Part shown: piece by piece, positions 7,187 to 59,222 of the stretch
How the letters are laid out: every line of letters begins with the position of its first letter
How positions within the stretch are numbered: position 1 is the first letter of the stretch
Assembly: GCF_000717655.1 (NCBI RefSeq)
Contig: NZ_JNZY01000002.1
Coordinates: 434,001 to 498,000, forward strand
Length of the DNA stretch: 64,000 bases
Origin: Streptomyces katrae
GTDB taxonomy: Bacteria; Actinomycetota; Actinomycetes; Streptomycetales; Streptomycetaceae
Reading direction: 5' to 3'
The notes under the pieces: generated by a model
Told to the model about the DNA's origin: nothing
The model's database searches: none
Seen by the model: only the letters and a program-made list of their open reading frames with translations
Translations under genes and position numbers: made by a program

Positions 7187-11804
<4,618 letters not shown>

Positions 11805-11812
<8 letters not shown>

Positions 11813-21896: not shown

Positions 21897-22889
21897 TCAC
21901 CCGTCGCGTTCCTGGAGCACCGCCGTCCGGCACACCGACGGCGAGCCCCACGCGTCGCGCAGCGGCCGCGCCTTGCGCAGCCACAGGGAGAGGTCGAGCT
22001 CCTCCGTGTAGCCGACGGCCCCGTGGAGCTGCAGCGCCGTCATGGCCGCCGCATACGCCGCCTCGCCCGCGGTCAGCTTCGCCGCCGCGACCTCCCACGG
22101 CGCCAGGCCCAGTGCCGCCGCCCACACCAGTGGCCGCGCGAACTCCAGGGCCAGCAGCGTGTCCGCCAGCCGGTGCTTCACCGCCTGGAAGGCGCCGATC
22201 GGCGTGCCGAACTGCGTGCGCTGCTTCACGTACTGCACCGTGCTCGCCAGCAGGGCCTCGCCCACCCCCAGGCACTGCGCCGCCGTCAGCAGCCGCGCCC
22301 AGCCCAGGGCCGTCGCCGCCGCCGCCGAGACCCGGGGCCCGGCGGCCAGCAGCTCCCCCTCCGCCGCCGGCCGGGACAGCCGGCGCGCCGGGTCCGTGGA
22401 CCCCAGCAGGTCCCCGGCCCCGCCCGCCAGCCGGAGCTCGCCCGCCGCCGACACCGTGAAGCAGTACGTCGCCGCATCCGCGTCCAGTACGTACGGACCC
22501 CCGCCCGGCAGCGTCAGCGTGGCCAGGGCCTCGCCCGCCACCAGCCCCGGCAGGAAGCGCTTCGCCGGCCCCTCCTCCCCGGCCGCCCCGAGCGCCGACA
22601 GGAGCACGGCCGCCGCAGCCGTCTCCACCACCGGGCCCGGCATCCCCGCCCGGCCCAGCTCCACGAAGCCGAGGGCCAGCTCCACCGGCAGCAGCCCCGC
22701 CCCGTCATGCGCCTCGTCCGCCGCCAGCGCGAACAGGCCCGTCCCGGCGAGCCGGGCCCACACCGCCCGCCCCGGCCCGTGGTCCCCGGAGCCCCAGGCC
22801 CGTACGGCCGCCGGCACGTCCGAGGCGCCGAGCAGGCCCTGCAGCGTACGGGCGAAGTCCGACTGTTCCGCGGTCGGCAGGAAGCGCAT
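21897..22889 (-). CDS. Acyl-CoA dehydrogenase, FadE32/FadE33-like subunit
   Basis: 330 residues, shorter than a standard ACAD (~380). N-terminal helical domain (FLPTAEQSDFARTLQGLL), a degenerate middle beta-domain, and a C-terminal domain with VKQRTQFGTPIGAFQAVKHRLAD and LQLHGAVGYTEELDL. Coupled by TGATG to the upstream FadE31-like gene. Mycobacterial counterparts form alpha2-beta2 heterotetramers in which one subunit supplies most FAD contacts. By analogy the pair dehydrogenates a CoA thioester from steroid ring C/D breakdown. Whether it corresponds to FadE32 or FadE33 cannot be settled here. Confidence 0.82.
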   Translation of the reverse strand: MRFLPTAEQSDFARTLQGLLGASDVPAAVRAWGSGDHGPGRAVWARLAGTGLFALAADEAHDGAGLLPVELALGFVELGRAGMPGPVVETAAAAVLLSALGAAGEEGPAKRFLPGLVAGEALATLTLPGGGPYVLDADAATYCFTVSAAGELRLAGGAGDLLGSTDPARRLSRPAAEGELLAAGPRVSAAAATALGWARLLTAAQCLGVGEALLASTVQYVKQRTQFGTPIGAFQAVKHRLADTLLALEFARPLVWAAALGLAPWEVAAAKLTAGEAAYAAAMTALQLHGAVGYTEELDLSLWLRKARPLRDAWGSPSVCRTAVLQERDG

Positions 22890-24034
22890 CAGCGGCGGCC
22901 CTTCGGGAGGCCGAGCAGGCGCTCGGCGATGATGTCGCGCTGGATCTCGTTCGTGCCCGCGTAGATCGGCCCGGCCAGCGAGAAGACCCAGGGCTCCGCC
23001 CACGCGCCCTCCGCCAGTTCCGCGTCCGCGCCCAGCAGGTCCAGCGCCGTCTCGTGCAGGGCGATGTCGTACTCCGACCAGAACACCTTGTTCAGGCTGG
23101 ACTCGGCGCCGATCCGCTCGCCCGCCGCGAACCGCGAGGCCGCGGTCCAGGTGAACAGCTCGTACGCGCGCGCCCCGACCGCCGCGTCCGCCACCCGGTC
23201 CCGCAGCGCGGTGTCCGCCGGATCCCCGGCCGCCCGCCACAGCCCGGCCAGCCGGTCCGCCGCCGCGAGGAAGCGCCCCGGCGAACGCAGCGTCAGCCCG
23301 CGCTCGTTGCCCGTCGTCGACATCGCGATCCGCCAGCCCTGCCCCGGCTCCCCGATCACGTCCGTGTCCGGTACGAAGACCTCGTCGAGGAAGAGCTCCG
23401 CGAAGGCGGGCTTCCCGTCCAGCCGGCCGATGGGCCGTACCGTCACCCCCGGCGCGCGCAGGTCGAACATCAAGTACGTCAGCCCCTGGTGCGGTTTCGC
23501 GGCCCCCGGGTCCGTACGGAAGACGCCGAACGCCCGGTCCGCGAACGCCGCCCGCGAGGACCAGGTCTTGTGCCCGGACAGCAGCCAGCCGCCTCCGGTG
23601 CGCACGGCCCGCGACCTCAGCGAGGCCAGGTCGGAGCCCGCCTCCGGCTCCGACCAGGCCTGTGCCCAGATCACCTCGCCGGCCGCCATCGGCGGCAGCA
23701 CCCGCGCCCGCTGCTCGGGCGTCCCGTGGTCGAAGAGGGTCGGTGCGAGGAGGCTGATGCCGTTCTGGGAGACCCGGCCGGGCGCGCCCGCCGCCCAGTA
23801 CTCCTCCTCGAAGACCAGCCACCGCTCGATGTCCACGCCGCGGCCGCCGTACTCCTCGGGCCAGGACACCGCCGACCAGCGGTCCGCGTGCAGCTGCGCC
23901 TCCCACTCCCGGTGCGCCGCGAAGCCCTCCGCCGTCTCCAGGGAGGGCAGGGGGGAGCGCGGGACGTGGCCGGCGAGCCAGGCGCGCGCCTCGGCCCGGA
24001 AGGCCTCCACCTCCGGTGCGTGGGTCAGGTCCAT
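22889..24034 (-). CDS. Acyl-CoA dehydrogenase, FadE31-like subunit
   Basis: 381 residues, full-length ACAD. Diagnostic stretches: WPEEYGGRG, AQAWSEPEAGSDLASLRS (FAD/substrate loop), GHKTWSSRAAFADR, MSTTGNERG and the C-terminal GTNEIQRDIIAERLLGLP. The pattern of FEEEYWAAGAPGR plus AQAWSEPEAGSDLASLRS matches what I recall of mycobacterial FadE31. Transcribed away from the ipdF-like SDR across an interval bearing a KstR2-type palindrome. Ribosome site GGAGG at spacing 10. Confidence 0.87.
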   Translation of the reverse strand: MDLTHAPEVEAFRAEARAWLAGHVPRSPLPSLETAEGFAAHREWEAQLHADRWSAVSWPEEYGGRGVDIERWLVFEEEYWAAGAPGRVSQNGISLLAPTLFDHGTPEQRARVLPPMAAGEVIWAQAWSEPEAGSDLASLRSRAVRTGGGWLLSGHKTWSSRAAFADRAFGVFRTDPGAAKPHQGLTYLMFDLRAPGVTVRPIGRLDGKPAFAELFLDEVFVPDTDVIGEPGQGWRIAMSTTGNERGLTLRSPGRFLAAADRLAGLWRAAGDPADTALRDRVADAAVGARAYELFTWTAASRFAAGERIGAESSLNKVFWSEYDIALHETALDLLGADAELAEGAWAEPWVFSLAGPIYAGTNEIQRDIIAERLLGLPKGRR

Positions 24035-24085
24035 CAGCTGTTCGCCTCCGTCGCAGGGGCCTGGGTACGCGTTCCCCGAGTGTTC

Positions 24086-24105
24086 CCTAACAAGTGTTTG
24101 GTAGG
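24086..24105. promoter_or_regulatory. Candidate KstR2 operator, fadE31/ipdF promoter region
   Basis: CCTAACAAGTGTTTGGTAGG is an imperfect palindrome in the 84-base divergent interval. Its core AACAAGTGTTTGGT fits the published KstR2 consensus AnCAAGnnCTTGnT at every fixed position but one. It is 17/20 identical (on the opposite strand) to the site at 33720-33739 between the echA20-like and SDR genes. Confidence 0.75.
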
Positions 24106-24118
24106 TTAACGTACGGCC

Positions 24119-24916
24119 ATGAGCCTGAACACCCCCACCACCCCCGGCTACGTGCCGGGTCACGGGCTGCTCCAGGGCCGCACCGCCGTCGTCACCGCCG
24201 CCGCCGGCGCCGGGATCGGCGGGGCCACCGCCCGCCGCTTCCTGGAGGAGGGCGCCCGCATCGTCATCGGCGACGCGCACGCCCGCCGCCTGAAGGAAAC
24301 CGAGGACGCCCTCGCCGCCGAGTTCGGCGCCGACCGCGTCACCTCCCTGCCCTGCGACGTCACCGACGAGGACCAGGTCCGGGCCCTGTTCGCGCTCGCC
24401 GAGCAGACCCACGGCCGCCTCGACGTCGTCGTCAACAACGCCGGCCTCGGCGGCACCGCCCCCCTCGTCGACATGACCGACGAACAGTGGGGGAAGGTCC
24501 TCGACGTCACCCTGAACGGCACCTTCCGCTGCACCCGCGCCGCCCTGCAGTCGCTGAAGGCCTCCCGGCGGGGCGGGGTCGTCGTCAACAATGCCTCCGT
24601 CGTCGGCTGGCGCGCCCAGACCGGCCAGGCCCACTACGCCGCCGCCAAAGCCGGCGTGATGGCACTGACCCGCTGCGCGGCACTGGAAGCGGCCGAGTTC
24701 GGCGTACGGATCAACGCGGTCGCCCCGAGCCTGGCCATGCACCCGCACCTGGCGAAGGTCACCAGCGAGGAACTGCTGCGCGAGCTGACGGCCCGCGAGG
24801 CCTTCGGCCGCTACGCCGAGCCGTGGGAGGTCGCCAACGTCATCGTGTTCCTGGCCAGCGGCTACTCGTCGTACATGACCGGCGAGACCGTCTCGGTCAG
24901 CAGCCAGCGCGCCTAG
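24119..24916 (+). CDS. ipdF: IpdF-like short-chain dehydrogenase
   Basis: 265 residues. SDR with an unusual glycine motif TAAAGAGIGGATARRF in place of TGxxxGIG, then NNAGLGG, catalytic VNNASVVGW, YAAAKAG and a C-terminal SSYMTGETVSVSSQRA. This combination (GHGLLQGRTAVVTAAAGAGIG, VDMTDEQWGKVLDVTLNG) closely matches my recollection of mycobacterial Rv3559c/IpdF, which oxidises a hydroxylated HIP-derived CoA ester during steroid ring C/D degradation. Divergent from fadE31 under a shared KstR2-type operator. Confidence 0.82.
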   Translation: MSLNTPTTPGYVPGHGLLQGRTAVVTAAAGAGIGGATARRFLEEGARIVIGDAHARRLKETEDALAAEFGADRVTSLPCDVTDEDQVRALFALAEQTHGRLDVVVNNAGLGGTAPLVDMTDEQWGKVLDVTLNGTFRCTRAALQSLKASRRGGVVVNNASVVGWRAQTGQAHYAAAKAGVMALTRCAALEAAEFGVRINAVAPSLAMHPHLAKVTSEELLRELTAREAFGRYAEPWEVANVIVFLASGYSSYMTGETVSVSSQRA

Positions 24917-24920
24917 GGGA

Positions 24921-25070
24921 TGCCCTGCCGATCGGGCCAGGCTCGCGGCGCATGGCACGCACGCTCGCCGCGTTCTCATCGGTCGACGACGCTCCGCGTC
25001 GACTCTCTCCTCCGCCTTGCGATCGCACGCGCCAGCCGCCGCTCGCTGATCTGGCCTGATCGGCAAGGCG
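24921..25070. repeat. Long imperfect palindrome (~150 bp)
   Basis: The outer arms TGCCCTGCCGATCGGGCCAG and CTGGCCTGATCGGCAAGGCG are inverted copies at 16/20 positions. The inner arms continue the pairing (GCGGCGcaTGGC against GCCAgcCGCC, and beyond). The centre is a perfect GTCGACG/CGTCGAC stem. The element fills the space between ipdF and the KstR2-like gene and codes for nothing. It may be a miniature inverted-repeat element or a structured RNA/terminator. Confidence 0.65.
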
Positions 25071-25092
25071 CCCCCTGGCCCAGAATGGGCCC

Positions 25093-25740
25093 GTGCCAAC
25101 GAACCGACCGACGAACCAGCCGACCCGGCCGACACCCAAGAAGAAGCCCCAGGTGACGGCCACGCCCGAGCGCCGCCGCGAGCTCCTCGACACCGCCGCC
25201 GAGGTCTTCGCTGCGCAGGGCTACAACGCCACCACCGTCCGCAAGATCGCCGACGCCGCCGGCATGCTCGCCGGCAGCCTCTACTACCACTTCGATTCCA
25301 AGGAATCGATGCTCGACGAGATCCTCTCGGCCTTCCTGAACGAGCTCTGGCAGGGCTACGACACCGTCCTCGCCGCCGGCCTCGGCCCCAGGGAGACCAT
25401 CGAGGCCCTCGTCACCGAGTCCTTCCGGGAGATCGACCGGCACCGCGCCGCCGTCGCGATCTACCAGAAGGAGTCCCGCGCCCTCTCCGTGCAGCCCCGC
25501 TTCCACTACCTGTCCGACTCGCAGCAGAAGTTCGAGAAGGCCTGGCTGGGGACGCTGGAGCGCGGGGTCGCCGCCCAGGTCTTCCGGGCCGACCTCGACA
25601 TCCGCCTCACCTACCGCTTCGTGCGCGACACGGTGTGGGTGGCGGCGTCCTGGTACCGGCCGGGAGGACAGCACAGCCCCGAGGAGATCGCCCGCCAGTA
25701 CCTCTCGATGGTGCTGGACGGGATCGCCGTGCGTACGTAA
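25093..25740 (+). CDS. kstR2: TetR-family repressor, KstR2-like
   Basis: 215 residues. The N-terminal tail is Thr/Pro/Lys-rich. The helix-turn-helix at about residues 46-75 reads TVRKIADAAGMLAGSLYYHF followed by DSKESML; AAGMLAGSLYYHFDSKE is a hallmark of KstR2. The C-terminal effector domain includes YQKESRALSVQPRF and RFVRDTVWVAASWYRPGG. KstR2 represses genes for degradation of the last two steroid rings and is released by HIP-CoA. Genes on both sides belong to that pathway and two matching operators are present. Nineteen bases separate it from the thiolase, so they are cotranscribed. Confidence 0.85.
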   Translation: MPTNRPTNQPTRPTPKKKPQVTATPERRRELLDTAAEVFAAQGYNATTVRKIADAAGMLAGSLYYHFDSKESMLDEILSAFLNELWQGYDTVLAAGLGPRETIEALVTESFREIDRHRAAVAIYQKESRALSVQPRFHYLSDSQQKFEKAWLGTLERGVAAQVFRADLDIRLTYRFVRDTVWVAASWYRPGGQHSPEEIARQYLSMVLDGIAVRT

Positions 25741-25759
25741 CCCGACCCGAGGAGTCCCG

Positions 25760-26917
25760 ATGCCCGAGGCCTACATAGTCGAAGCGGTGCGCACCCCCGT
25801 GGGGCGGCGCAAAGGGGGCCTGTCCGCGGTCCACCCGGCCGACCTGGGCGCGCACGTCCTGAAGGCGCTGGTCGAGCGGTCCGGGGTGGACCCGGCCGCC
25901 GTCGAGGACGTGGTCTTCGGCTGCCTGGACACGGTGGGCCCGCAGGCCGGGGACATCGCCCGCACCGCATGGCTGGCGGCGGGGCTGCCGGAGGAGGTGC
26001 CGGGCGTCACGGTGGACCGCCAGTGCGGCTCCTCGCAGCAGGCCGTCCACTTCGCGGCGCAGGGCGTGCTCTCCGGGACCCAGGACCTGGTCGTGGCCGG
26101 CGGGACCCAGAACATGTCGATGATCCCCATCGCCTTCGCGTCCCGGCAGGCGGCGGAACCGCTCGGCCTCACGGAGGGCCCGTACGCGGGCAGCGAGGGC
26201 TGGCGGGCCCGGTACGGGGACGCGCCGGTGAACCAGTTCCACGGCGCCGAGCTGATCGCGCAGAAGTGGGGCATCACGCGCCGCGCCATGGAGGAATTCG
26301 CACTGCGGTCCCACCAGCGGGCCCTGCGCGCGATCGACGAGGGCCGCTTCGAGCGCGAGACCGTCGCGTACGGGGACGTCCGGGCCGACGAGGGCCCCCG
26401 CCGGGACACCACCCCGGAGAAGATGGCGGCCCTGCGGCCGGTGGTCGAGGGCGGCACGATCACGGCGGCCGTCTCCTCGCAGGTCTCGGACGGCGCGGCG
26501 GCGATGCTGATCGCCTCCGAGCGGGCCGTCGCCGAACACGGCCTGCGGCCGCGGGCCCGCATCCACCACCTGTCCGTACGCGGCGAGGACCCCATCCGGA
26601 TGCTGTCGGCGCCGATCCCGGCGACGGCGCACGCGCTGAAGAAGACCGGCATGTCGCTGGACGACATCGACCTCGTGGAGATCAACGAGGCGTTCGCCCC
26701 GGTCGTCCTGGCCTGGCTGAAGGAGACCGGCGCCGACCCCGAACGGGTGAACGTCAACGGCGGGGCCATCGCATTGGGCCATCCGCTGGGCGCCACGGGA
26801 GTGAAGCTGATGACCACGCTGCTCCACGAGCTGGAGCGGACGGGGGGCCGCTACGGGCTGCAGACCATGTGCGAGGGCGGCGGCCAGGCCAACGTCACCA
26901 TCATCGAGCGGCTGTAG
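25760..26917 (+). CDS. fadA6: FadA6-like thiolase (acetyl-CoA acetyltransferase family)
   Basis: 385 residues. Nucleophilic Cys89 in DRQCGSSQQAV; His in NGGAIALGHPLGATG; second Cys in MCEGGGQANV; active-site NEAFAPV. All thiolase motifs are intact. FadA6 cleaves a beta-ketoacyl-CoA formed after ring opening in steroid catabolism. Ribosome site GAGGAG at spacing 7. Downstream of the KstR2-like gene in one operon, followed by a GC-rich palindrome. Confidence 0.87.
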   Translation: MPEAYIVEAVRTPVGRRKGGLSAVHPADLGAHVLKALVERSGVDPAAVEDVVFGCLDTVGPQAGDIARTAWLAAGLPEEVPGVTVDRQCGSSQQAVHFAAQGVLSGTQDLVVAGGTQNMSMIPIAFASRQAAEPLGLTEGPYAGSEGWRARYGDAPVNQFHGAELIAQKWGITRRAMEEFALRSHQRALRAIDEGRFERETVAYGDVRADEGPRRDTTPEKMAALRPVVEGGTITAAVSSQVSDGAAAMLIASERAVAEHGLRPRARIHHLSVRGEDPIRMLSAPIPATAHALKKTGMSLDDIDLVEINEAFAPVVLAWLKETGADPERVNVNGGAIALGHPLGATGVKLMTTLLHELERTGGRYGLQTMCEGGGQANVTIIERL

Positions 26918-26922
26918 CGCAC

Positions 26923-26940
26923 GGCCCCGGCGCCGGGGCC
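26923..26940 (+). terminator. Palindrome after the fadA6-like gene
   Basis: GGCCCCGG-CG-CCGGGGCC, a perfect eight-base stem five bases after the stop. The loop is only two bases, so pairing would open slightly. Probable terminator. Confidence 0.45.
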
Positions 26941-27041
26941 GGGGGCTCCCGCCCCGGTCCCCGCGCAGGTCGTCCGCAGAAGGGGCTGGGACGCCCGCGC
27001 CGAGGTGTGCTAGCTTTAGCAGCGTTGCAGTTGTGGTACCC

Positions 27042-27108
27042 ATGAACTTTATGTGCGCCTGACGGGAATGTTCCTCAGGCGCTTTTATTGTTTTGCCGGA
27101 CTCTCCGG
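27042..27108 (+). promoter_or_regulatory. Structured leader of the cold-shock gene
   Basis: The leader holds a perfect stem GCGCCTGA/TCAGGCGC (27055-27062 with 27075-27082) followed by TTTTATTGTTTT, which is a textbook intrinsic terminator placed upstream of the coding region. A second small stem CCGGA/TCCGG follows. A six-codon frame, ATGAACTTTATGTGCGCCTGA less its last base read in 20s (M-N-F-M-C-A-stop), ends inside the first stem. The layout suggests attenuation or temperature-dependent folding. Confidence 0.55.
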
Positions 27109-27143
27109 ATGGGGCCCTTTGCCGCCTATTCAGGAGATTTAAA

Positions 27144-27350
27144 ATGGCACTTGGCACCGTGAAGTGGTTCAACTCGGAAAAGGGCTTCGGCTTCATCGAG
27201 CAGGACGGTGGCGGTCCGGACGTGTTCGCCCACTACTCGAACATCGCCACCCAGGGCTTCCGTGAGCTCACCGAGGGTCAGCGCGTCTCGTTCGACGTGA
27301 CCCAGGGCCAGAAGGGCCCCCAGGCGGAGAACATCCTCCCCGCCAACTAA
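27144..27350 (+). CDS. CspA-family cold-shock protein
   Basis: 68 residues, one cold-shock domain. RNP1 KGFGFIEQ and RNP2-like DVFAHYSNI are present; it opens with [14 protein letters not shown] and ends ENILPAN. Binds single-stranded nucleic acid and melts RNA secondary structure in the cold. Strong ribosome site CAGGAG at spacing 8 and an A/T-rich stretch before the ATG, unusual for this genome. Followed by a strong terminator and a DEAD-box helicase, a cold-adaptation pairing. Confidence 0.95.
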
Positions 27351-27362
27351 GTACTTCAGCAT

Positions 27363-27396
27363 GCCGGGGTCCGCACCGTGAGGTGCGGGCCCCGGC
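27363..27396 (+). terminator. Terminator between csp and the helicase gene
   Basis: A 15-base stem with one mismatch and a GTGA tetraloop (GCCGGGGtCCGCACC against GGTGCGGgCCCCGGC) followed by TTGTCTGCTGTTT. This lies 12 bases after the csp stop. Confidence 0.8.
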
Positions 27397-27451
27397 TTGT
27401 CTGCTGTTTCGACGTTTGTTTTACCTGCCGGTTTCAGGAGGGCTTTCTCGC

Positions 27452-29131
27452 ATGACCAGCTCCAGCTCCGCACGACCCAGCCGCCGCCCCACCCGGGGCC
27501 GAGGTGCGGCACAGGGACGTCCGAAGGCTGGCGCGGGACGGCAGAAGTCCGCCCCCGTCGCCCGGCCCCAAGAATTCACCATGCCCGAACCGCTGACCCC
27601 GGCCCTGCCGCCGGTGGCCGCGTTCGAGGACATGGGCATGCCCGAGGCGCTGCTGAAGACCCTCTCCGCCCAGGGCGTCACCGAGCCGTTCCCGATCCAG
27701 GCCGCGACGCTGCCGAACTCGCTCGCCGGCCGTGACCTGCTCGGCCGCGGCCGTACCGGCTCCGGCAAGACGCTGGCCTTCGGCCTGGCGCTGCTGGCCC
27801 GTACCGCCGGCCGCCGCGCGCAGCCGAAGCAGCCGCTCGCGCTGGTCCTCGTACCGACCCGTGAGCTCGCGCAGCAGGTGACCGACGCCCTGGCCCCGTA
27901 CGCCACGGCCGTCAACCTGCGCATCGCGACCGTCGTCGGCGGCATGTCGATCAACCGGCAGTCGGGCGCGCTGCGCCGCGGCGCCGAGGTGCTCGTCGCC
28001 ACTCCCGGCCGCCTCAAGGACCTCATCGACCGCGGTGACGCCGACCTCTCGCAGGTCGCGATCACCGTCCTCGACGAGGCCGACCAGATGACCGACATGG
28101 GCTTCATGCCGCAGGTCACCGCGCTGCTCAAGCAGGTCGAGCCCGAGGGCCAGACCATGCTGTTCTCGGCGACCCTCGACAAGAACATCGACAAGCTCGT
28201 CAAGATGTTCCTGCACGACCCGGTCGCCTTCTCCGTCGACCCGTCCGCCGGCGCGGTCAGCACGATGGAGCACCACGTCCTGTACGTCATGGACGAGACC
28301 GACAAGAAGGCCGTGACCACGCGCATAGCCGCTCGCGACGGCCGGGTGATCATGTTCGTGGACACCAAGCGCGGTGTCGACCGCCTGGTCAAGAAGCTCC
28401 TGGCGGACGGCGTCCGCGCCTCCGGCCTGCACGGCGGCCGCTCGCAGCCGCAGCGCAACCGGACCCTGGACTGGTTCAAGACCGGCGAGGTCACCGCGCT
28501 GATCGCCACGAACGTGGCCGCGCGCGGCATCCACATCGACGACCTCGACCTGGTCGTCAACATCGACCCGCCGACCGACCACAAGGACTACCTGCACCGC
28601 GGCGGCCGTACCGCCCGCGCCGGCGAGTCCGGCAGCGTGGTCACCCTGGTGCTGCCCGACCAGAGGCGGGAGATGTCCCGCCTGATGTCGGACGCCGGGA
28701 TCTCCCCGCGCACCGCGCAGATCAAGTCCTCCGACGAGGAGCTGTCCCGGCTCACCGGCGCCAAGGAGCCCTCGGGCATCCCCGTGGTCCTCGAGGTGCC
28801 GCAGCAGCCGGCCCCGGCGGGCCGGCGCTCCGGCGGCCAGGGCGGCGGCAGCGGCCGTTCCGCCAGCCCGCGCCGCCGCTCCGGCGGGTCCTCCGCCGCG
28901 CAGGGCGGCGCTGCGCCGGCCGGCGGCGGCGAGGGCCGTCCGCGTCGGGCCCGCTCCGGCGCAGGCCAGGGCGGTGGCGGCCAGACCGGCGCCCGCGGCC
29001 AGGGCGGCCAGGGCGCCGCGCGTGGTCAGGGCGGCGGCGGCCAGGGCGGTTCCCGCTCCGGCGGTGCTCCGGCCGGTGCGCGTCGCCGCTCGGGTGGCGG
29101 GCGTCCCGCGGCGGGGCGCGCCAGCTCCTGA
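27452..29131 (+). CDS. DEAD-box ATP-dependent RNA helicase
   Basis: 559 residues. A basic N-terminal tail of ~40 residues precedes the core. Q-motif region: EPFPIQAATLP. Walker A: GRTGSGKT (~residue 100). Motif Ia: PTRELAQQV. Walker B: DEAD in VLDEADQMTDMGF (~207-210). Motif III: SAT. C-terminal RecA lobe: TNVAARGIHIDDLDLV and HRGGRTARAGESG. The last ~110 residues are Gly/Gln/Arg/Ser-rich (GQGG repeats), probably an RNA-binding disordered tail. Ribosome site AGGAGG at spacing 10. Likely role in cold-shock RNA remodelling with the adjacent Csp. Confidence 0.95.
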   Translation: MTSSSSARPSRRPTRGRGAAQGRPKAGAGRQKSAPVARPQEFTMPEPLTPALPPVAAFEDMGMPEALLKTLSAQGVTEPFPIQAATLPNSLAGRDLLGRGRTGSGKTLAFGLALLARTAGRRAQPKQPLALVLVPTRELAQQVTDALAPYATAVNLRIATVVGGMSINRQSGALRRGAEVLVATPGRLKDLIDRGDADLSQVAITVLDEADQMTDMGFMPQVTALLKQVEPEGQTMLFSATLDKNIDKLVKMFLHDPVAFSVDPSAGAVSTMEHHVLYVMDETDKKAVTTRIAARDGRVIMFVDTKRGVDRLVKKLLADGVRASGLHGGRSQPQRNRTLDWFKTGEVTALIATNVAARGIHIDDLDLVVNIDPPTDHKDYLHRGGRTARAGESGSVVTLVLPDQRREMSRLMSDAGISPRTAQIKSSDEELSRLTGAKEPSGIPVVLEVPQQPAPAGRRSGGQGGGSGRSASPRRRSGGSSAAQGGAAPAGGGEGRPRRARSGAGQGGGGQTGARGQGGQGAARGQGGGGQGGSRSGGAPAGARRRSGGGRPAAGRASS

Positions 29132-29152
29132 CACACGCTGACGAGAAGTCCC

Positions 29153-29189
29153 GTACGCCGGGCGGCGCGAGGTGCGCCGCCCGGCGTAC
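29153..29189. terminator. Bidirectional terminator, perfect 16-bp stem
   Basis: GTACGCCGGGCGGCGC pairs perfectly with GCGCCGCCCGGCGTAC around a five-base loop. It lies between the convergent helicase and phosphatase genes and can serve both. Confidence 0.85.
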
Positions 29190-29219
29190 TGCTGTCCGGG
29201 CGGTGTCCGGGCTGCCGCG

Positions 29220-30155
29220 CTAGCGGACCAGCTTCGTCTGGAGCTTGGCGAGCGTCCGCAGGTCCAGGCCGAGGCCGTCCGTGAGGTAGCCGTAGAAGCT
29301 GCCGTAGTCCGCGGCCAGTTGTGCGGTCGCCGCGTCCAGGTAGTCCTGGCGGACCTCCTGGAGCGGGATCAGCAGGTCCGGGTTCTGCATCCGCCCGGAC
29401 TGCTTCAGGCCCGACCGCACCTGCGCGTCGTACGCGGCGCGGAACGTGTTCGACGCGAGGTAGTCGCGCTCGGCCGTCTCCTCGGGGACGGCCAGGGCGC
29501 GCAGCAGGACGTAACTCATCCAGCTCGTCCGGTCCTTGCCCGAGGTGCAGTGGTACAGGAGCGGGCCCTGGCCGCCGTCCGCGATCTCCCGTACCGTCGC
29601 CGCGAACTGCGCCCGGTTCTCGGGGCTGGTCACGAAGGTGCGGTAGATGTCGCGCATGTAGGCCTCGGCGCGGCCGCCTCCGAGCATCTGCTCCTGCGCG
29701 GCGGGGTCGCCGCTGGAGATCGCGCCGACGAGCGTCCCGTACAGGCCGAGGTCGCTGACGGGGCGGGAGGTGGCGGTGAGCCCGGCGGGCAGCCGGTCGG
29801 CGCCGTCGTACCGGAGCTCCATGGGGATGCGGAAATCGACGACCTTCTTGAGGCCGAGACCGGAGACGGTGGTGATGTCCGCCTGGGTCAGCTTGCTGAG
29901 CGCGTCGGAGCGGTAGACCAGGCCCTGGCGGACCTGACCGCCGGTCCAGGTGCGGTAGCCGCCCAGGTCGCGAACGTTGACCGCGCCCTGGAGGGGGATC
30001 TGGCGAATCGTTTCCGCCTGCTGGTGGTACCGGTCGGCGGCGGTGGCGCCCGACGCTGCCGGCGCGGCGGAGGCGGCGGAGGCGGCGGGCAGGGTGCCGA
30101 GGGCGAGAGCGGAAGCGAGCACCGCGGTCACCAGGCGGATTCGGGCACGGCTCAT
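29220..30155 (-). CDS. Secreted tyrosine-protein phosphatase (PtpB / DSP-like)
   Basis: 311 residues with an N-terminal signal peptide (RLVTAVLASALALGTLPAASA) cleaved near residue 28. The P-loop is HCTSGKDRTSW (CX5R with the GKDR form), as in the PtpB/lipid-and-tyrosine phosphatase family. The upstream NVRDLGGYRTWTGGQVRQG and YRSDALSKL segments are also typical. Exported, so it acts outside the cytosol on phosphoproteins, phosphoinositides or other phosphoesters. Ribosome site CAGGAG at spacing 9. Sits immediately downstream of the ipdC-type operon, on the same strand. Confidence 0.88.
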   Translation of the reverse strand: MSRARIRLVTAVLASALALGTLPAASAASAAPAASGATAADRYHQQAETIRQIPLQGAVNVRDLGGYRTWTGGQVRQGLVYRSDALSKLTQADITTVSGLGLKKVVDFRIPMELRYDGADRLPAGLTATSRPVSDLGLYGTLVGAISSGDPAAQEQMLGGGRAEAYMRDIYRTFVTSPENRAQFAATVREIADGGQGPLLYHCTSGKDRTSWMSYVLLRALAVPEETAERDYLASNTFRAAYDAQVRSGLKQSGRMQNPDLLIPLQEVRQDYLDAATAQLAADYGSFYGYLTDGLGLDLRTLAKLQTKLVR

Positions 30156-30186
30156 CGGTGGCGACTCCTGAGGAGGAGAAGGGGGA

Positions 30187-31326
30187 TCACCCTGGTGGTG
30201 GCAGGGCGTCGAGCGGGTGCGGGTGTTCAGGGTGCGGATGGTGTGGGTGCGCACGTTCGCCGTGCAGGCGTTCCAGCCGTGCCAGCACGGTGTGTGCCTC
30301 GGCCATGACGCGGGCGACGAGCTCCGCACAGGACGGCAGATCCTCGATCACCCCCGCGACCTGGCCTGATGCCATGACGCCGAGGTCCGTACGGCCCTCG
30401 ACCATGGACGCCTTGAGGAGCATGGGGGTGTTCGCGGCGAGCAGGACCTGGCTCCAGGACAGGTCCTTGCCGTGTTTCATCGCGAGGCCGTCGCGCACCA
30501 TCTGCGGCCAGGACAGCCCGGAGAGCCTGCGGAAGGCGGCCGCGTGCCGGACCGCCCGGGCCAGCGCCCGGGTGCGGCCCGCCCGCTCGAGGGACGCGAC
30601 CAGCTCGGTACGCAGCATCCGGTGCGGCAGCCCGTCCACGGCCGTCGTCACGGTGACGTCCTTGACGCCTGCCGCGAGGTACCGGGCCTTGACCGCGTCC
30701 GGGACGGTGGAGTCCGAGGTCAGCAGGAAGCGGGTGCCCATGGCGATGCCCGCAGCCCCGTACGACAGCGCGGCGACCAGCCCGCGGCCGTCGTGGAAGC
30801 CGCCCGCCGCGACCACCGGGATGTCCACCGCATCGACCACCTGGGGCAGCAGTACCGTCGTGGCCACGTCCCCGGTGTGCCCGCCGCCCTCGCCGCCCTG
30901 CACGATCACCGCGTCGGCCCCCCACGCCGCGACCTTCTCGGCGTGCCGCCGGGCCCCGATCGACGGGATCACGACCACACCCGCGTCCTTGAGCTGCGCA
31001 ATCAGCTCCTTCGACGGCGCGAGCGCGAACGAGGCGACCCGTACGCCCTCGTCGATGATCAGCCGGACGCGCTCGGCGGCGTCCCCCGCGTCGGCGCGGA
31101 GGTTGACCCCGAACGGGGCGTCCGTACGGGACCTGACCTCGCGGACCGCCGCACGCAGCTCGTCCACGGTCATCGTCGCCGAGGCCAGGATGCCCAGGGC
31201 GCCCGCGTTGGCGGCGGCCGAGACCAGCCGGGGCCCGGCCACCCAGCCCATGCCCGTCTGCACGATCGGGTGCTCGACACCGACCAGTTTCGTGAACGGC
31301 GTCTGCACCGACATCGACATCGCCAT
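30187..31326 (-). CDS. ipdC: IpdC-like flavin-dependent oxidoreductase (nitronate monooxygenase family)
   Basis: 379 residues. NMO/2-nitropropane dioxygenase TIM barrel with FMN-binding elements GMGWVAGPRLVSAAANAG, VQGGEGGGHTG and PVVAAGGFHDGRGLVAALSYGA. It matches IpdC by family and by position beside ipdAB and echA20; IpdC acts on a bicyclic HIP-derived CoA ester before hydrolytic ring opening. The C-terminus carries an odd His/Pro-rich tail (HPHHPHPEHPHP), possibly metal-binding. Four bases separate its start from the ipdB stop; three closely spaced in-frame ATG codons make the exact start uncertain. Confidence 0.82.
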   Translation of the reverse strand: MAMSMSVQTPFTKLVGVEHPIVQTGMGWVAGPRLVSAAANAGALGILASATMTVDELRAAVREVRSRTDAPFGVNLRADAGDAAERVRLIIDEGVRVASFALAPSKELIAQLKDAGVVVIPSIGARRHAEKVAAWGADAVIVQGGEGGGHTGDVATTVLLPQVVDAVDIPVVAAGGFHDGRGLVAALSYGAAGIAMGTRFLLTSDSTVPDAVKARYLAAGVKDVTVTTAVDGLPHRMLRTELVASLERAGRTRALARAVRHAAAFRRLSGLSWPQMVRDGLAMKHGKDLSWSQVLLAANTPMLLKASMVEGRTDLGVMASGQVAGVIEDLPSCAELVARVMAEAHTVLARLERLHGERAHPHHPHPEHPHPLDALPPPG

Positions 31327-31330
31327 CGCC

Positions 31331-32068
31331 TCAGACCCGCACTTCCCGGTCGCGCAGCCCCTTCGGGTCGATCACCTCGCGGATCAGCCGCAGCTCCTCG
31401 GCGGTCGGCTCCCGCGTGTACGGGACCTCGCCGGCGACCGCCAGGTCGAACCCGGTGGCCGCCCGGACCTGTTCGACGGTGACGCCCGGGTGGAGCGAGG
31501 CCAGGCGCATCGAGTGGTCCGGACCGGCGAAATCGAAGACCCCGAGATCGCTGACCACCCGCGGGAGCCGGTGGAAGCGGGTCACCCCGGCCGCCTCCGC
31601 CCGGTCGTAGCCCACCCCGCTCACCATGTCGACGCGCTCGACGAACACCCGCGGGGAATGCTTCGGCACCCAGTAACTCACCGGATTGTTCAGGGTGTTG
31701 ACCGGCGCTCCGCGTACCCCGAGGAGCTGACGGGCCGGGCGGGCCCAGTCGCCGATGCAGGAGATGTTCTGGTTGCCGAACCGGTCGATCTGGCTCGCGC
31801 CCATCATCACGTGCCGCCGGCCGCCGGTGACCATCGTCAGGTGGCGGCGGTACGGGAGCCAGCCCTCGGCCTCGCCGCCGAGGCCGACGAGCAGGGCCTC
31901 CCCGTCGGTCAGGAGCAGGTCGGGGGAGAAGGTCCGCTTCGCCAGCCGGGCCCCGAACGACGGGATCAGGCCCATCGGGCTGGCGAGCACCTCGCCGTTG
32001 CCGCGCCAGGCCTCGGCGCAGGCGATCACGCAGTACTCCGCCCGGGAGGCGGCCGTCGCTGTGCTCAC
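31331..32068 (-). CDS. ipdB: IpdB-like CoA-transferase family subunit (ring-cleaving hydrolase beta subunit)
   Basis: 245 residues of the class I CoA-transferase beta-type fold: ASPMGLIPSFGARLAKRTFSP, LLVGLGGEAEGWLPYRR, GGRRHVMMGASQIDRFGNQN and CIGDWARPARQLLGVRG. IpdAB-type proteins work as a hydrolase that opens the last steroid ring of COCHEA-CoA rather than as CoA-transferases. GTG start overlapping the ipdA stop as GTGA, so the two subunits are coupled. A strong GAGGAG site lies just inside the ipdA end. Confidence 0.85.
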   Translation of the reverse strand: MSTATAASRAEYCVIACAEAWRGNGEVLASPMGLIPSFGARLAKRTFSPDLLLTDGEALLVGLGGEAEGWLPYRRHLTMVTGGRRHVMMGASQIDRFGNQNISCIGDWARPARQLLGVRGAPVNTLNNPVSYWVPKHSPRVFVERVDMVSGVGYDRAEAAGVTRFHRLPRVVSDLGVFDFAGPDHSMRLASLHPGVTVEQVRAATGFDLAVAGEVPYTREPTAEELRLIREVIDPKGLRDREVRV

Positions 32069-32916
32069 TTCTGCTCCTCGTGCCAGGTCTGGACGGCCGA
32101 CTGGTAGGCGTGCTCGCTGCCGCCGGACAGGAAGCGGGCGGAGAACTCCGGCCAGGGGGTGGTCGCGTACAGCTTCTGGAAGGCCTCGTCGCGCCCGTGG
32201 TCGGGGACGCAGGAGGTGAAGTGCGCCCCGTTCGGGGTCTCGACGACGCCCGTGACGGAGTGCCGGCTGACCAGCAGGGACTGCGGGGGCCCGGCCTTGG
32301 AGAGCTCGGCGGTCTCCACGAGCTGTTCGCAGGAGAGGTACGCGGCGTCGGCGGCCTCGCAGAACAGGTCGTCGAAGTACGGGTCCGGGCCCAGGTACTG
32401 GCCGTTGCCGAGGCGGTCGGCGCGGTTGAGGTGGACCAGTGCGGCGTCCATGCGCAGGGCGGGGACGGCGACGAGCTCCTCGCCGTCGGCGTAGGGGGAG
32501 GTGATGGTGCGCAGCCCGGGGTTGACCCGCATGACGTCGGATCCGAGGCCGGCGCGGACGGGGAGGAAGGGGAGCCGGTTCGCGGCGGCGTGCAGGCCCC
32601 ACATGAACATGGCCTCGTCGAGCTCGGTGAGGGTGAAGGCGCCGCTTTCGCGGGCCGCCCGGAAATGCGGCTCCAGCGGGATGGAGTCGAGGGTGGCGAA
32701 GGGTGCGACGAGCCTCCGGATCCGGCCGGCTGCCGCGAGCAGGCCGACGTCGGGGCCGCCGTACGAGATCACGGTGAGATCGGTGATCTCGGAACGGAGC
32801 AGTGCCCGCACCAGGGCCATGGGCTTGCGCCGCGACCCCCAGCCGCCGATGCCCAGGGTCATCCCGCTGCGCAGCTGCCCGACCACCTCTTCGGGGGTCA
32901 TCGTCTTGTCGGTCAT
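32065..32916 (-). CDS. ipdA: IpdA-like CoA-transferase family subunit (ring-cleaving hydrolase alpha subunit)
   Basis: 283 residues. The alpha-type CoA-transferase fold is seen in the opening LRSGMTLGIGGWGSRRKPMALVRALLRS, then ISYGGPDVGLLAAAGRIRRLV and DAALVHLNRADRLGNGQYLGPDPYFDDLF. GGWGSRRKPM replaces the usual transferase glycine loop, as I recall for IpdA. Overlaps the EchA20-like gene upstream as ATGA and ipdB downstream as GTGA, forming one operon echA20-ipdA-ipdB-ipdC. Confidence 0.87.
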   Translation of the reverse strand: MTDKTMTPEEVVGQLRSGMTLGIGGWGSRRKPMALVRALLRSEITDLTVISYGGPDVGLLAAAGRIRRLVAPFATLDSIPLEPHFRAARESGAFTLTELDEAMFMWGLHAAANRLPFLPVRAGLGSDVMRVNPGLRTITSPYADGEELVAVPALRMDAALVHLNRADRLGNGQYLGPDPYFDDLFCEAADAAYLSCEQLVETAELSKAGPPQSLLVSRHSVTGVVETPNGAHFTSCVPDHGRDEAFQKLYATTPWPEFSARFLSGGSEHAYQSAVQTWHEEQK

Positions 32917-33701
32917 GAGCGCTCCTTCCCTGCAAGCTCTCCCTCTGCAAGTTCTCCCTCTGCGGGCTCTCCGAAGGCGGCGCGGACCCGGTCGGCGACC
33001 CCGCTGAGGTTGGCCTCGAAGGTGAACCCCTGCTCGAAGCGGTAGCTGCGCCGTACGTCGACGGGGTCGATGCCGTTGATGGCCGCCTTGGCCAGCCGGA
33101 TGAGGTAGCCGTCCTTCCGGGCGATCTCGGCGGCGAGTTCGAGGGCCGCCGCCCGCAGCCCCGCACGCGGCACCACCCGCCACACCGAGCCGTGCGCGTG
33201 CAGTTCCGCGGCGGTGGCGGTGCGCGAGGTGTAGTAGAGGGCGCGCATCAGGTGCTGGGGGACCAGGCGGGCCAGGTGGGTGGCGGCGCCGAGGGCGCCC
33301 CGGTCGAGCTCCGGCAGTCCGAAGGCCGCGTCCTCGCTCGCCACGATCGCGTCGGCGTTGCCGACGAGGCCGATGCCGCCGCCCAGGCAGAACCCGTGCA
33401 CGGCCGCGATGACGGGCACCTCGCACTCGTAGACGGCGGCGAAGGCCTCGTAGCAGCCGCGGTTCGCGCCGATGAGCGCCGCGTGGCCGGTGTCGCGCTG
33501 CATCTCCTTGATGTCGACGCCGGCGTTGAAGCCGCGGCCCTCGGCGGCCAGCACGACACACCGGGCCTCCGGGTCGCGGCCGGCCGCGCGCAGGGCGTCG
33601 GCGAGGTCGTACCAGCCCTGCACGGGAAGCGCGTTGACGGGTGGGAAGTCGACGGTGACCAGTGCGATGCCCTTGCCGGGGCTTGAGGTGGAGACACCCA
33701 T
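32913..33701 (-). CDS. echA20: EchA20-like enoyl-CoA hydratase/isomerase family enzyme
   Basis: 262 residues of the crotonase superfamily: oxyanion-hole segments GRGFNAGVDIKEMQ and HGFCLGGGIGLVGNADAIVAS, plus FGLPELDRGALGAATHLARL. In mycobacteria EchA20 hydrolytically opens the first of the two remaining steroid rings (HIEC-CoA to COCHEA-CoA). Start chosen at the ATG (MGVSTSSP); a further upstream ATG falls inside the operator palindrome and lacks a ribosome site. The C-terminus carries a short AEGELAEGELAG duplication. First gene of the minus-strand operon. Confidence 0.85.
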   Translation of the reverse strand: MGVSTSSPGKGIALVTVDFPPVNALPVQGWYDLADALRAAGRDPEARCVVLAAEGRGFNAGVDIKEMQRDTGHAALIGANRGCYEAFAAVYECEVPVIAAVHGFCLGGGIGLVGNADAIVASEDAAFGLPELDRGALGAATHLARLVPQHLMRALYYTSRTATAAELHAHGSVWRVVPRAGLRAAALELAAEIARKDGYLIRLAKAAINGIDPVDVRRSYRFEQGFTFEANLSGVADRVRAAFGEPAEGELAEGELAGKERS

Positions 33702-33719
33702 GAGAGGATCAGCTACCTT

Positions 33720-33739
33720 TCCACCAAACATTTGTTAGG
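33720..33739. promoter_or_regulatory. Candidate KstR2 operator, echA20/SDR promoter region
   Basis: TCCACCAAACATTTGTTAGG lies in the 60-base interval between divergent echA20-like and SDR genes. It is 17/20 identical to the reverse complement of the site at 24086-24105. Its core fits the KstR2 consensus with two substitutions. Confidence 0.72.
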
Positions 33740-33761
33740 TGAGGAAGGAAGGTAGCAGCCC

Positions 33762-34526
33762 ATGGAGCTCGACGGGAGGGTTGTCGTCGTCACCGGCGGA
33801 ACCCGTGGCGTCGGCGCCGGCATCGCCCGGTCGTTCCTCGAAGCGGGCGCGCAGGTCGTCGTCTGCGCGCGCCGCCCGCCGCCCGAAGCGGTGTGCGCGG
33901 GCGGGCGCACCGCCTCGTTCACCGCGCTTGACCTGCGCGATCCGGCCGCCGTACAGGAGTTCTTCGATGCGGTCGGGCGCCGGTACGGGCGGCTCGACTG
34001 CCTGGTGAACAACGCGGGCGGAACCCCGTACCGGCCGCTGGGGGAGGGCGGGGCGCAGCGGCACGCGCGGATCGTCGAGCTGAACCTGGTGGCGCCGATG
34101 ACGGCCTCGCTGGCGGCGTACCCGCTGCTGCGCGAGGCGCACGGCTCGGTGGTGATGGTCGGCAGCGTCAGCGGGACCCGGCCCTCGCCCGGGACGGCCG
34201 CGTACGGGGCGGCGAAGGCGGGACTGGAGAGCCTGGCCCGGTCCATGGCCGTGGAATGGGCGCCCGAGGTACGGGTGAACTCGCTCGTGCTGGGCATGGT
34301 GCGCACCGAGCTCGCGCACCTGCACTACGGGGACGAGGCGGGGATCGCGGCCGTGGGCGCGACGGTCCCGCTGGGCAGGCTGGCGGAGCCCGCGGACGTC
34401 GGGGCGGCGGCGGTGTTTCTGGCCTCCGGCCGGGCGGGGTATGTCAGCGGGGCGAGCCTGCTCGTGCACGGGGGCGGGGAGCGCCCGGCATTTCTGGATG
34501 CGGCAACGGTCAACAGGGAGAGTTGA
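33762..34526 (+). CDS. Short-chain dehydrogenase of the ipd cluster (Rv3549c-like)
   Basis: 254 residues. SDR motifs TGGTRGVG, NNAGG, GSVSG and YGAAKAG with catalytic Ser/Tyr/Lys in place. The position beside an echA20-like gene, and directly before a second SDR of Rv3548c type, reproduces the mycobacterial order Rv3548c-Rv3549c-echA20. The exact oxidation step is not known to me. Ribosome site GGAAGG upstream at spacing ~9. Confidence 0.8.
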   Translation: MELDGRVVVVTGGTRGVGAGIARSFLEAGAQVVVCARRPPPEAVCAGGRTASFTALDLRDPAAVQEFFDAVGRRYGRLDCLVNNAGGTPYRPLGEGGAQRHARIVELNLVAPMTASLAAYPLLREAHGSVVMVGSVSGTRPSPGTAAYGAAKAGLESLARSMAVEWAPEVRVNSLVLGMVRTELAHLHYGDEAGIAAVGATVPLGRLAEPADVGAAAVFLASGRAGYVSGASLLVHGGGERPAFLDAATVNRES

Positions 34527-34527
34527 G

Positions 34528-35436
34528 ATGGGACTTGCCGAGGGTCGTGTGGTCATCGTGACGGGCGCGGGGCGGGGGCTGGGCCGGGCCCACGCACTGG
34601 CCTTCGCGGCGGAGGGGGCGAAGGTCGTCGTCAACGACCTGGGCGTGGGCCTGGACGGGCAGCCGGGGGAGGACAGTCCGGCCGGGCAGGTGGTCGCGGA
34701 GATCCGGGCGCTGGGCGGCGAGGCGGTGGCGCACGGCGAGGACATCGCGTCGCCCGAGGGCGCGTCCTCGCTGGTCGGGGCGGCCCTGTCGGCGTTCGGC
34801 CGGCTGGACACGCTGGTCAACAACGCCGGGTTCCTGCGGGACCGGATGCTGGTGAACCTGGAGGAGGCGGACTGGGACGCGGTGATGCGGGTGCACCTGA
34901 AGGGGCACTTCCTGCCGCTGAAGTACGCCGCGGCGCACTGGCGGGCCGAGGCGAAGGCGGGCCGTCCGGTGGCGGCGCGGGTCGTCAACACCTCTTCGGG
35001 GGCGGGGCTGCTGGGCTCGGTCGGGCAGGGCAACTACAGCGCGGCCAAGGCCGGCATCCTCGGCATGACGCTGGTCGCGGCGGCGGAGATGGGCCGGTAC
35101 GGGGTCCAGGTCAACGCGATCGCCCCGGCGGCGCGGACTCGGATGACGGAGCAGACGTTCGCCGGGACGATGGCGGCGCCGGGGGAGGGCGGCTTCGACG
35201 CGATGGCCCCGGAGAACGTGTCGCCGCTGGTGGTGTGGCTGGGCTCGGACGCCTCGGCGGGGGTCACGGGCCGGGTCTTCGAGGCGGAGGGCGGCCGGAT
35301 CACGGTGATGGAGGGCTGGCGCCCCGGCCCGACGGCGGACCGCGGGGCCCGCTGGACCCCGGCCGAGGCGGGCGAGACGGCGACGAAACTCCTCGCGGAA
35401 TCCGAGCCCCCGCACCCGGTCTACGGAGCCGGGTAG
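34528..35436 (+). CDS. Short-chain dehydrogenase of the ipd cluster (Rv3548c-like)
   Basis: 302 residues, longer than a basic SDR because of a C-terminal extension (GGRITVMEGWRPGPTADRG onward). The core has TGAGRGLGRAHALAFAAEGA, VVVNDLGVGLDG, NNAGFLRDRMLVNL, VNTSSGAGLLGS and YSAAKAGILG. This group includes hydroxyacyl-CoA dehydrogenases of the MFE-2 type. The start is one base after the previous stop, with GGGAGAG before it, so it is cotranscribed with the first SDR. It converges on marR with 13 bases between. Confidence 0.85.
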   Translation: MGLAEGRVVIVTGAGRGLGRAHALAFAAEGAKVVVNDLGVGLDGQPGEDSPAGQVVAEIRALGGEAVAHGEDIASPEGASSLVGAALSAFGRLDTLVNNAGFLRDRMLVNLEEADWDAVMRVHLKGHFLPLKYAAAHWRAEAKAGRPVAARVVNTSSGAGLLGSVGQGNYSAAKAGILGMTLVAAAEMGRYGVQVNAIAPAARTRMTEQTFAGTMAAPGEGGFDAMAPENVSPLVVWLGSDASAGVTGRVFEAEGGRITVMEGWRPGPTADRGARWTPAEAGETATKLLAESEPPHPVYGAG

Positions 35437-35923: not shown

Positions 35924-35943
35924 GGCACCCACCGTACCAAGTG

Positions 35944-35963
35944 TTTAGTTCGGGCGAACGAAA
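35944..35963. promoter_or_regulatory. MarR operator, marR-proximal
   Basis: TTTAGTTCGGGCGAACGAAA, a 9-2-9 inverted repeat with one mismatch, 21 bases upstream of the marR start. Confidence 0.8.
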
Positions 35964-56448: not shown

Positions 56449-56452
<4 letters not shown>

Positions 56453-59111: not shown

Positions 59112-59145
59112 CGCAGGGCCTCCGATGAGCGTGTCGGATAAGACT

Positions 59146-59177
59146 CCGCGCGAGGGCGCTGTTGCGCCCTCGCGCGG
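59146..59177 (-). terminator. Intra-operon hairpin between livK and livH
   Basis: A perfect 14-base stem (CCGCGCGAGGGCGC/GCGCCCTCGCGCGG) with loop TGTT. It may act as a partial terminator or as an RNA stabiliser for the livK message. Confidence 0.75.
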
Positions 59178-59222
59178 TGGTTTTTGGTTCAGGTGCGGCT
59201 GGTGATGCGGGGTCCTACGGGA

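Follow-up and report, generated by a model that had tools for sequence, protein, structure and literature searches.

The window analyzed here is a stretch of 64,000 nucleotides from Streptomyces katrae (RefSeq assembly GCF_000717655.1, contig NZ_JNZY01000002.1, positions 434,001 to 498,000, or G000:C2:434001-498000 in our numbering of genomes, G, and contigs, C; loci and stretches are numbered L). It contains a locus of ten enzyme genes and one TetR-type regulator gene (positions 21897-35436) that resembles the KstR2 regulon of mycobacteria, whose enzymes break down HIP, an indane acid representing steroid rings C and D. A preliminary description, made from the DNA letters alone, had given this extent and gene content correctly, and all 11 reading frames are free of internal stops. 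The genes form two blocks (Table 1). In the first, fadE32 and fadE31 diverge from ipdF, kstR2, and fadA6; in the second, the order ipdC-ipdB-ipdA-echA20 and the divergent promoter shared with two genes for short-chain dehydrogenases/reductases (SDRs) are as previously described. The insert between the blocks consists of a small gene, presumably a cold-shock gene, and genes for a DEAD-box helicase and a tyrosine phosphatase, the latter two identified by Pfam. The locus is interior to a 598 kb contig of an 8.58 Mb draft genome (151 contigs, 99.77% complete). Gene identities, gene order, intact frames, predicted operators, and conservation in relatives are established here at the level of sequence.

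Table 1. Genes and operators of the locus, with window positions and supporting evidence; operators are predicted from sequence, and paired bit values are score/curated cutoff
Feature	Position	Strand	Evidence
fadE32, MOODA-CoA dehydrogenase subunit	21897..22889	-	reciprocal best hit FadE32 35%; tree 98/97 with FadE32; IpdE2 model 115 of 450 bits
fadE31, acyl-CoA dehydrogenase subunit	22889..24034	-	reciprocal best hit FadE31 57%; tree 100/100
KstR2-type operator site 1, fadE31/ipdF gap	24087..24102		CTAACAAGTGTTTGGT; predicted
ipdF, HIC-CoA oxidoreductase, SDR family	24119..24916	+	PRK07831 454/336 bits; reciprocal best hit 64%
kstR2, TetR repressor	25093..25740	+	4w97/4w1u KstR2 192 bits; 2ibd 224; next chain 77
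fadA6, beta-keto CoA thiolase	25760..26917	+	PRK07801 706/591 bits; reciprocal best hit 64%
ipdC, 5-OH HIC-CoA reductase, FabK-like	30187..31326	-	Pfam NMO 297 bits; nearest solved chains FabK-type; reciprocal best hit 49%
ipdB, COCHEA-CoA hydrolase beta subunit	31331..32068	-	6co6_B 313, 6con_B 281 bits; glutaconate CoA-transferase 62; reciprocal best hit 44%
ipdA, COCHEA-CoA hydrolase alpha subunit	32065..32916	-	6co6_A 329, 6con_A 312 bits; reciprocal best hit 53%
echA20, HIEC-CoA hydrolase, crotonase family	32913..33701	-	PRK07938 418/260 bits; reciprocal best hit 44%
KstR2-type operator site 2, echA20/SDR gap	33723..33738		CTAACAAATGTTTGGT on - strand; predicted
SDR, Rv3549c type	33762..34526	+	PRK07856 370/255 bits; reciprocal best hit 49%
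SDR, Rv3548c type	34528..35436	+	reciprocal best hit 57%; Pfam adh_short

Each of the ten enzymes is the reciprocal best hit of a protein from the HIP cluster of Novosphingobium pNL2, at 35-64% identity, and all ten fall into the families previously expected for them. The comparison was made between gene sets, not whole genomes: the 11 window proteins against 17 pNL2 proteins. The pNL2 labels were assigned by gene order, apart from one gene annotated as FadD3 family; this order agrees with that of the Comamonas genes in Table 1 of PMC5380842, which lists the KstR2 regulon with its Comamonas counterparts. Curated NCBIfam cutoffs are passed by four of the ten translations scanned (IpdF, FadA6, EchA20, and the Rv3549c-type SDR), and by none of the FadE proteins, IpdA, IpdB, IpdC, or the TetR protein. 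Among solved structures, IpdA and IpdB match IpdAB chains best, compared with 85 and 62 bits to glutaconate CoA-transferase. In the alignment, Glu101 of IpdA falls at the Glu of 6co6; Ala occupies this position in 6coj, which we take to be an active-site mutant, and glutaconate CoA-transferase 1poi lacks the Glu. The nearest chains (6co6 and 6con) and this Glu place the pair in the IpdAB hydrolase class rather than among CoA-transferases. Their two CoA-transferase domains account for all PF01144 matches in the genome, and the named nearest relatives of IpdA, among the best 120 of 7999, come with few exceptions from Streptomyces. Those at 90-93% identity include proteins from S. lavendulae, S. 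virginiae, S. katrae, and S. subrutilus.

In a tree of 21 acyl-CoA dehydrogenases, the two FadE proteins group with strong support with FadE31 (100/100) and FadE32 (98/97). The pair had been described as FadE31 with FadE32-33. FadE31 and FadE32 stand, whereas FadE33 is not encoded in the window locus, and neither are FadE30 and FadD3. Reciprocal best hits, NCBIfam models, and the tree mark IpdC, IpdF, EchA20, FadA6, FadE31, and FadE32 as orthologues of their namesakes. A Nocardia reference stretch (L003) gave clear matches for ipdABC only. From these comparisons, we consider the identification at the level of genes to be secure, with very little room for doubt.

The regulator, as had been proposed, is KstR2-like, judging by its matches to solved structures, among which 2ibd is an unnamed regulator. 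The divergent promoters at 24035-24118 and 33702-33761 each carry one predicted box, CTAACAARTGTTTGGT, and the two sites agree at 15 of 16 bases. Positions 24084-24107 are identical at 21 of 24 places to the KstR2 site of Rhodococcus jostii ro04595/04596, as printed in PMC3068626, whereas the best match elsewhere in the window, beyond both promoters, has 15. Thus, best hits, hidden Markov models, sequences of solved structures, and operator comparison agree on the resemblance to the KstR2 regulon that had been claimed. Elsewhere in the genome, there is no perfect match to the box pattern, which was itself drawn from these two sites. At up to three mismatches, the genome has 4 matches (two of them with 3 mismatches) versus 7 in a reversed control and, because the control exceeds the genome, weight is placed on the two perfect sites only. 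The bare KstR2 consensus AnCAAGnnCTTGnT was rejected as a sole criterion. Although our sites match it with one and two mismatches, it finds 30 places in the window at up to two mismatches (mean of 6.25 in shuffled sequences) and does not discriminate. No box with four or fewer mismatches lies directly before kstR2.

Site 1 has the same sequence in L004, L005, and L028-L031, all of which are loci with fadE30, and is identical in strains NBC_00841 and BHT-5-2. Site 2 shows no mismatch in L013-L023, one in L005, and two in L004. An exact search with site 1 yielded at least 119 stretches, of which 80 listed loci, mostly from Streptomyces, were examined. On the ipdF side, the gene adjoining the box is ipdF in 68 of the 80 loci listed, fadE30 in 11, and unassigned in one. 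An intermediate layout, with ech and ipdF on opposite sides of the box, is seen in 12 of the 80.

With the KstR2 regulon of Mycobacterium and Rhodococcus (Rv3548c-Rv3564), the locus shares IpdA, IpdB, IpdC, IpdF, EchA20, FadA6, FadE31, FadE32, two SDRs, and KstR2 and, with the mycobacterial regulon, the order Rv3553-Rv3548c and a divergent echA20/SDR promoter with a KstR2-type box. It encodes its own repressor and has a predicted palindromic box at both divergent promoters, as expected of a KstR2 regulon. However, the fadD3, fadE30, and fadE33 genes that belong to such a regulon are missing, the boxes number two rather than three, helicase and phosphatase genes separate the blocks, and the genome has no match to KshA or HsaC. 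Genes outside KstR2 control also separate the two halves in M. smegmatis (PMC3068626). The Novosphingobium pNL2 cluster, in which all ten enzymes have their counterparts within the sets compared, has fadE30-, fadE33-, and fadD3-type genes that the window locus lacks. The Comamonas column of PMC5380842 Table 1 contains no KstR2 homologue, unlike the locus here.

Fuller loci of other Streptomyces (a plasmid of NBC_00841 and genomes G072, G080, G170, and G158) have the same core order. They add fadE30 and ech, which occupy the ipdF-fadE31 gap in G072, G080, G170, and G158, and ring A/B-type genes beyond the SDR genes; the ring A/B-type labels are our own, except for KshA (PF19298) and HsaC (TesB query). 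The genes fadD3 and fadE33 are present in NBC_00841, G080, and G170, and were not seen in the stretches examined for G072 and G158. The helicase/phosphatase insert is common to our locus and the chromosomal loci of G072, G080, G170, and G158. G131 has the layout of the window and no KshA or HsaC match, whereas the two blocks lie side by side in G121 and L004. Thus, the two-part layout noted previously is real, but it is not special to this strain and is found in relatives with and without KshA. The fuller locus of NBC_00841 (L005, L009) resides on a 1.5 Mb linear plasmid typed as mobilizable, which carries fadE30, fadE33, fadD3, and probable KshB- and HsaA-type genes (Pfam, with our own labels).

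The side-chain step of HIP breakdown consists of a CoA ligase and a two-gene dehydrogenase, RHA1_RS22390/RS22415, according to a review (PMC8399759); these two genes are fadE33 and fadE30 in Table 1 of PMC5380842. As to the steps before HIP, the KshA_C family (PF19298) has no match in our genome at E ≤ 0.001. An HsaC/TesB query (a pNL2 protein labeled by gene order) found no match in our genome, G131, G052, or G069, in a search that did not extend to KstD and other Hsa genes, and matched all five KshA-positive controls (G072, G080, G170, G158, and G192). Neither of the two genes by which Bergstrand et al. (2016; PMC4810484) recognize a degrader of the 9,10-seco type, KshA and HsaC, was thus found, and the genome therefore does not show how steroids would be converted to HIP by the known route. 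Judged by these families, the organism does not resemble a degrader of steroids by the known 9,10-seco route, and we therefore read it as a degrader of rings C and D only. That survey reported the pathway for 2 of 57 Streptomyces genomes and not for the other 55. Because its criterion demands KshA and HsaC, genomes with a C/D-only set such as this one fall outside the count. In G121, which has no PF19298 match, two extradiol-dioxygenase-like genes lie away from the ipd locus (C1:705878-706720 and 7170738-7171583).

An entry step wholly missing from the genome was also considered, and this idea was dropped after candidates were found on contigs C19 and C72, in a second cluster around afsK/kbpA. 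C19 encodes a FadE30-like dehydrogenase (60% identity to FadE30 of NBC_00841), and C72 has an AfsK match and encodes a FadE33-like dehydrogenase (39% identity). A FadD3-family ligase is cut at the edge of C72 (612.8 bits) and likely ends at the edge of C79 (118.6 bits); these pieces, scored separately, compare with a cutoff of 657 for NCBIfam NF005801. Our copy is 92% identical over 441 residues to the ligase of G131, which scores above this cutoff (793.5 bits). In G131, a genome of one contig, the FadE30-like, FadE33-like, and ligase genes lie within approximately 30 kb, and between the FadE33-like and ligase genes stand kbpA, a gene for a TetR protein, and an Ltp2-type gene for a lipid-transfer thiolase (PRK07855, 575/469 bits, by the copy in our genome). 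The cluster (L035 and L074, G131:C1:4222001-4262000; C19 and C72 here) also contains hydratases, an SDR, thiolases, a flavin-monooxygenase-like gene, and a CoA ligase of ADP-forming type (Pfam). Its TetR gene appears to be the orthologue of SCO4421, a Streptomyces coelicolor TetR gene near afsK whose mutant is described as having no phenotype (PMC3878966). Proteins of the cluster with the VOC fold were considered as HsaC-like and rejected: one is KbpA (NCBIfam), and the others are ~36% similar to KbpA or to each other.

The distribution of these genes was surveyed in 199 Streptomyces genomes, including our own, that are at least 90% complete, with E thresholds that we set (ipdA, 1e-60; FadE30-like, 1e-150; FadE33-like, 1e-80; ligase, 1e-200). 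The ipdA gene is present in 137 genomes and absent from 62. PF19298 matches occur in 58 at E ≤ 0.001 (56 above the Pfam cutoff). KshA was counted only above 260 bits because the remaining matches score at most 101 bits. The 18 genomes that exceed this threshold are all ipdA-positive; of the other ipdA-positive genomes, 32 have only weak matches and 87 have none, and weak matches are also found in 8 of the 62 ipdA-negative genomes. The genes of the second cluster co-occur with ipdA. Among the 137 ipdA-positive genomes, 126 have the FadD3-family ligase, 128 the FadE33-like gene, and 103 the FadE30-like gene; the corresponding numbers for the 62 ipdA-negative genomes are 0, 1, and 1. Of the 119 ipdA-positive genomes without a strong KshA match, 118 carry the ligase, the FadE33-like gene, or both. 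The fadE30 gene of the fuller loci tracks KshA. At 1e-60 its query matches 177 of the 199 genomes through other dehydrogenases, but identity breaks from 74-75% to 64%, and the matches listed at or above 74% come from 29 genomes, all ipdA-positive: 17 of the 18 with KshA versus 12 of the other 119.

We favor the reading that S. katrae has a pathway for rings C and D only, split over two chromosomal sites, which most likely scavenges HIP, or an indane acid related to it, that other microbes release. Conservation of the core makes it likely that the core acts on HIP-derived CoA esters. We hypothesize, on the basis of protein families and co-occurrence, that the afsK cluster provides the entry step for HIP: its FadD3-family ligase, FadE30- and FadE33-like dehydrogenases, hydratases, SDR, and thiolases would convert HIP to HIC-CoA. 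IpdF and IpdC would then turn 5-OH HIC-CoA into HIEC-CoA, EchA20 would open ring D to give COCHEA-CoA, and IpdAB would open ring C, if the analogy with mycobacteria holds. On the same analogy, FadA6 would release MOODA-CoA, which FadE31/32 would oxidize. KstR2 presumably holds down this ring-opening core at the two boxes, one per block, until an acyl-CoA intermediate (HIP-CoA in mycobacteria) lifts repression. The earlier claim of an ability to open the last two rings of steroids is a fair one for the ring-opening enzymes; the locus itself lacks a HIP-CoA ligase and HIP side-chain dehydrogenase, for which the candidates lie elsewhere. Cross-feeding on HIP is a guess that agrees with the absence of ring A/B genes. 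More tentatively, with somewhat less than even confidence, we suggest that many Streptomyces have a complete but headless steroid pathway, with rings C and D only, an entry step beside afsK, and a core under KstR2 elsewhere, and that these strains either cross-feed on HIP from other steroid degraders or use some natural indane acid, which would then be the original substrate of the HIP pathway.

Several observations weigh against this reading. The FadE30-like protein groups with IpdE1 (89/95) and the FadE33-like protein with IpdE2 (83/92) with moderate support, and FadE33 of pNL2 falls outside the latter group. The FadE33-like protein also fails the IpdE2 model NF050027 (203.8 bits, cutoff 450); this model may be too narrow, because the in-locus FadE33 of NBC_00841 fails it as well (240.9 of 450). 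No KstR2 box with four or fewer mismatches occurs in the second-cluster stretches (L032-L035, L056, L057, and L074-L076). That cluster includes an Ltp2-type gene and others dispensable for HIP, and it may therefore serve another substrate. It is also carried by KshA-positive strains (for example, G072, G080, and G158), and therefore is not simply a stand-in for genes that those strains keep elsewhere. The weak Rieske matches to PF19298 in 32 ipdA-positive genomes must likewise be considered. Finally, the co-occurrence counts are raw and ignore kinship, and shared ancestry inflates such counts.

The chief alternative is that both gene sets, the core and the afsK/kbpA cluster, break down an acid that is not a steroid but is bicyclic or bears a side chain, such as an indane carboxylic acid derived from a terpenoid. 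Some relatives would then have specialized later in steroids with the same chemistry. In favor of this proposal are the scarcity of strong KshA matches among ipdA-positive genomes (18, versus 32 weak only and 87 none), the way in which the in-locus fadE30 tracks KshA, and the lipid-transfer thiolase, flavin-monooxygenase-like gene, and ADP-forming-type CoA ligase, which HIP breakdown does not need. However, the core enzymes are as close as 35-64% to a proteobacterial HIP cluster, conservation extends to the Glu of IpdA and to the KstR2 box, and the fuller steroid clusters of close relatives contain this same core. Together, these features suggest that the substrate of the core is unchanged, and we consider the alternative unlikely, at roughly a third of the weight that we give to scavenging of HIP or a related indane acid.

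A whole-steroid degrader whose ring A/B genes are too divergent to detect or lie in assembly gaps appears very improbable. The assembly has 151 contigs whose ends break the FadD3-family gene, and G072, G080, and G170 have KshA, HsaC, and more ring A/B-type genes beside the same locus. However, completeness is 99.77%, the locus lies within its 598 kb contig, and none of the neighboring window genes scanned is a ring A/B gene. Moreover, the one-contig genome G131 has the same reduced layout without a KshA or HsaC match, and PF19298 has no match whatever in 87 of the ipdA-positive genomes. With no match to KshA or HsaC in tests that covered these two families and not KstD or other Hsa genes, this explanation was rejected.

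Still less credible is the idea that the locus is what is left of a decaying steroid cluster and has no present function, even though relatives have longer versions of it, from which the present one differs by the absence of fadE30, ech, fadD3, and fadE33, and the box of the fadE30/ech promoter of longer loci persists between ipdF and fadE31. None of the eleven frames is broken, site 1 has not changed in the loci with fadE30 named above, and the short form is common, because ipdF rather than fadE30 adjoins the site-1 box in most of the loci listed; on these grounds, the remnant explanation was rejected. Chance similarity was rejected as well.

Breakdown of HIP is usually described as the lower half of steroid degradation, and the distribution reported here suggests that the two halves are separable in nature. 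With ipdA in 137 of 199 Streptomyces genomes, 119 of them without strong KshA and 87 without any match, surveys keyed to ring A/B genes would miss C/D degraders. This leaves two options: soil microbes share HIP as a public good, or the pathway serves a different substrate. The proposed entry step also suggests, as a hypothesis, a definite role for the metabolic genes that adjoin afsK/kbpA, a region well known for regulation (afsK encodes an antibiotic-control kinase). In the PMC full-text literature, as far as it could be surveyed and with subscription literature outside its scope, no paper was found on HIP genes in Streptomyces without ring A/B genes.

One of the two copies of the KstR2-type box with three mismatches in the genome is located at 35934-35949, just upstream of the coding region of a major facilitator superfamily transporter and beside a putative MarR-type gene. 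This copy may belong to the putative MarR-type regulator or have arisen by chance. The tyrosine phosphatase gene of the insert (PF13350; 29220-30155) adjoins ipdC, as it does in L005, G072, G080, G170, G158, and G131, and was not seen at the G121 locus; we know of no role for this phosphatase in HIP breakdown. The locus is flanked by glutamate synthase genes (7187-13265) and by genes for an ABC transporter of branched-chain amino acid type (56449-60707), both by Pfam, and its surroundings look like a core stretch of the chromosome. Outside Streptomyces, an 86.6 kb plasmid of Tsukamurella tyrosinosolvens (L006-L008) carries an annotated KstR gene, MlaD-family genes, and an ipd block.

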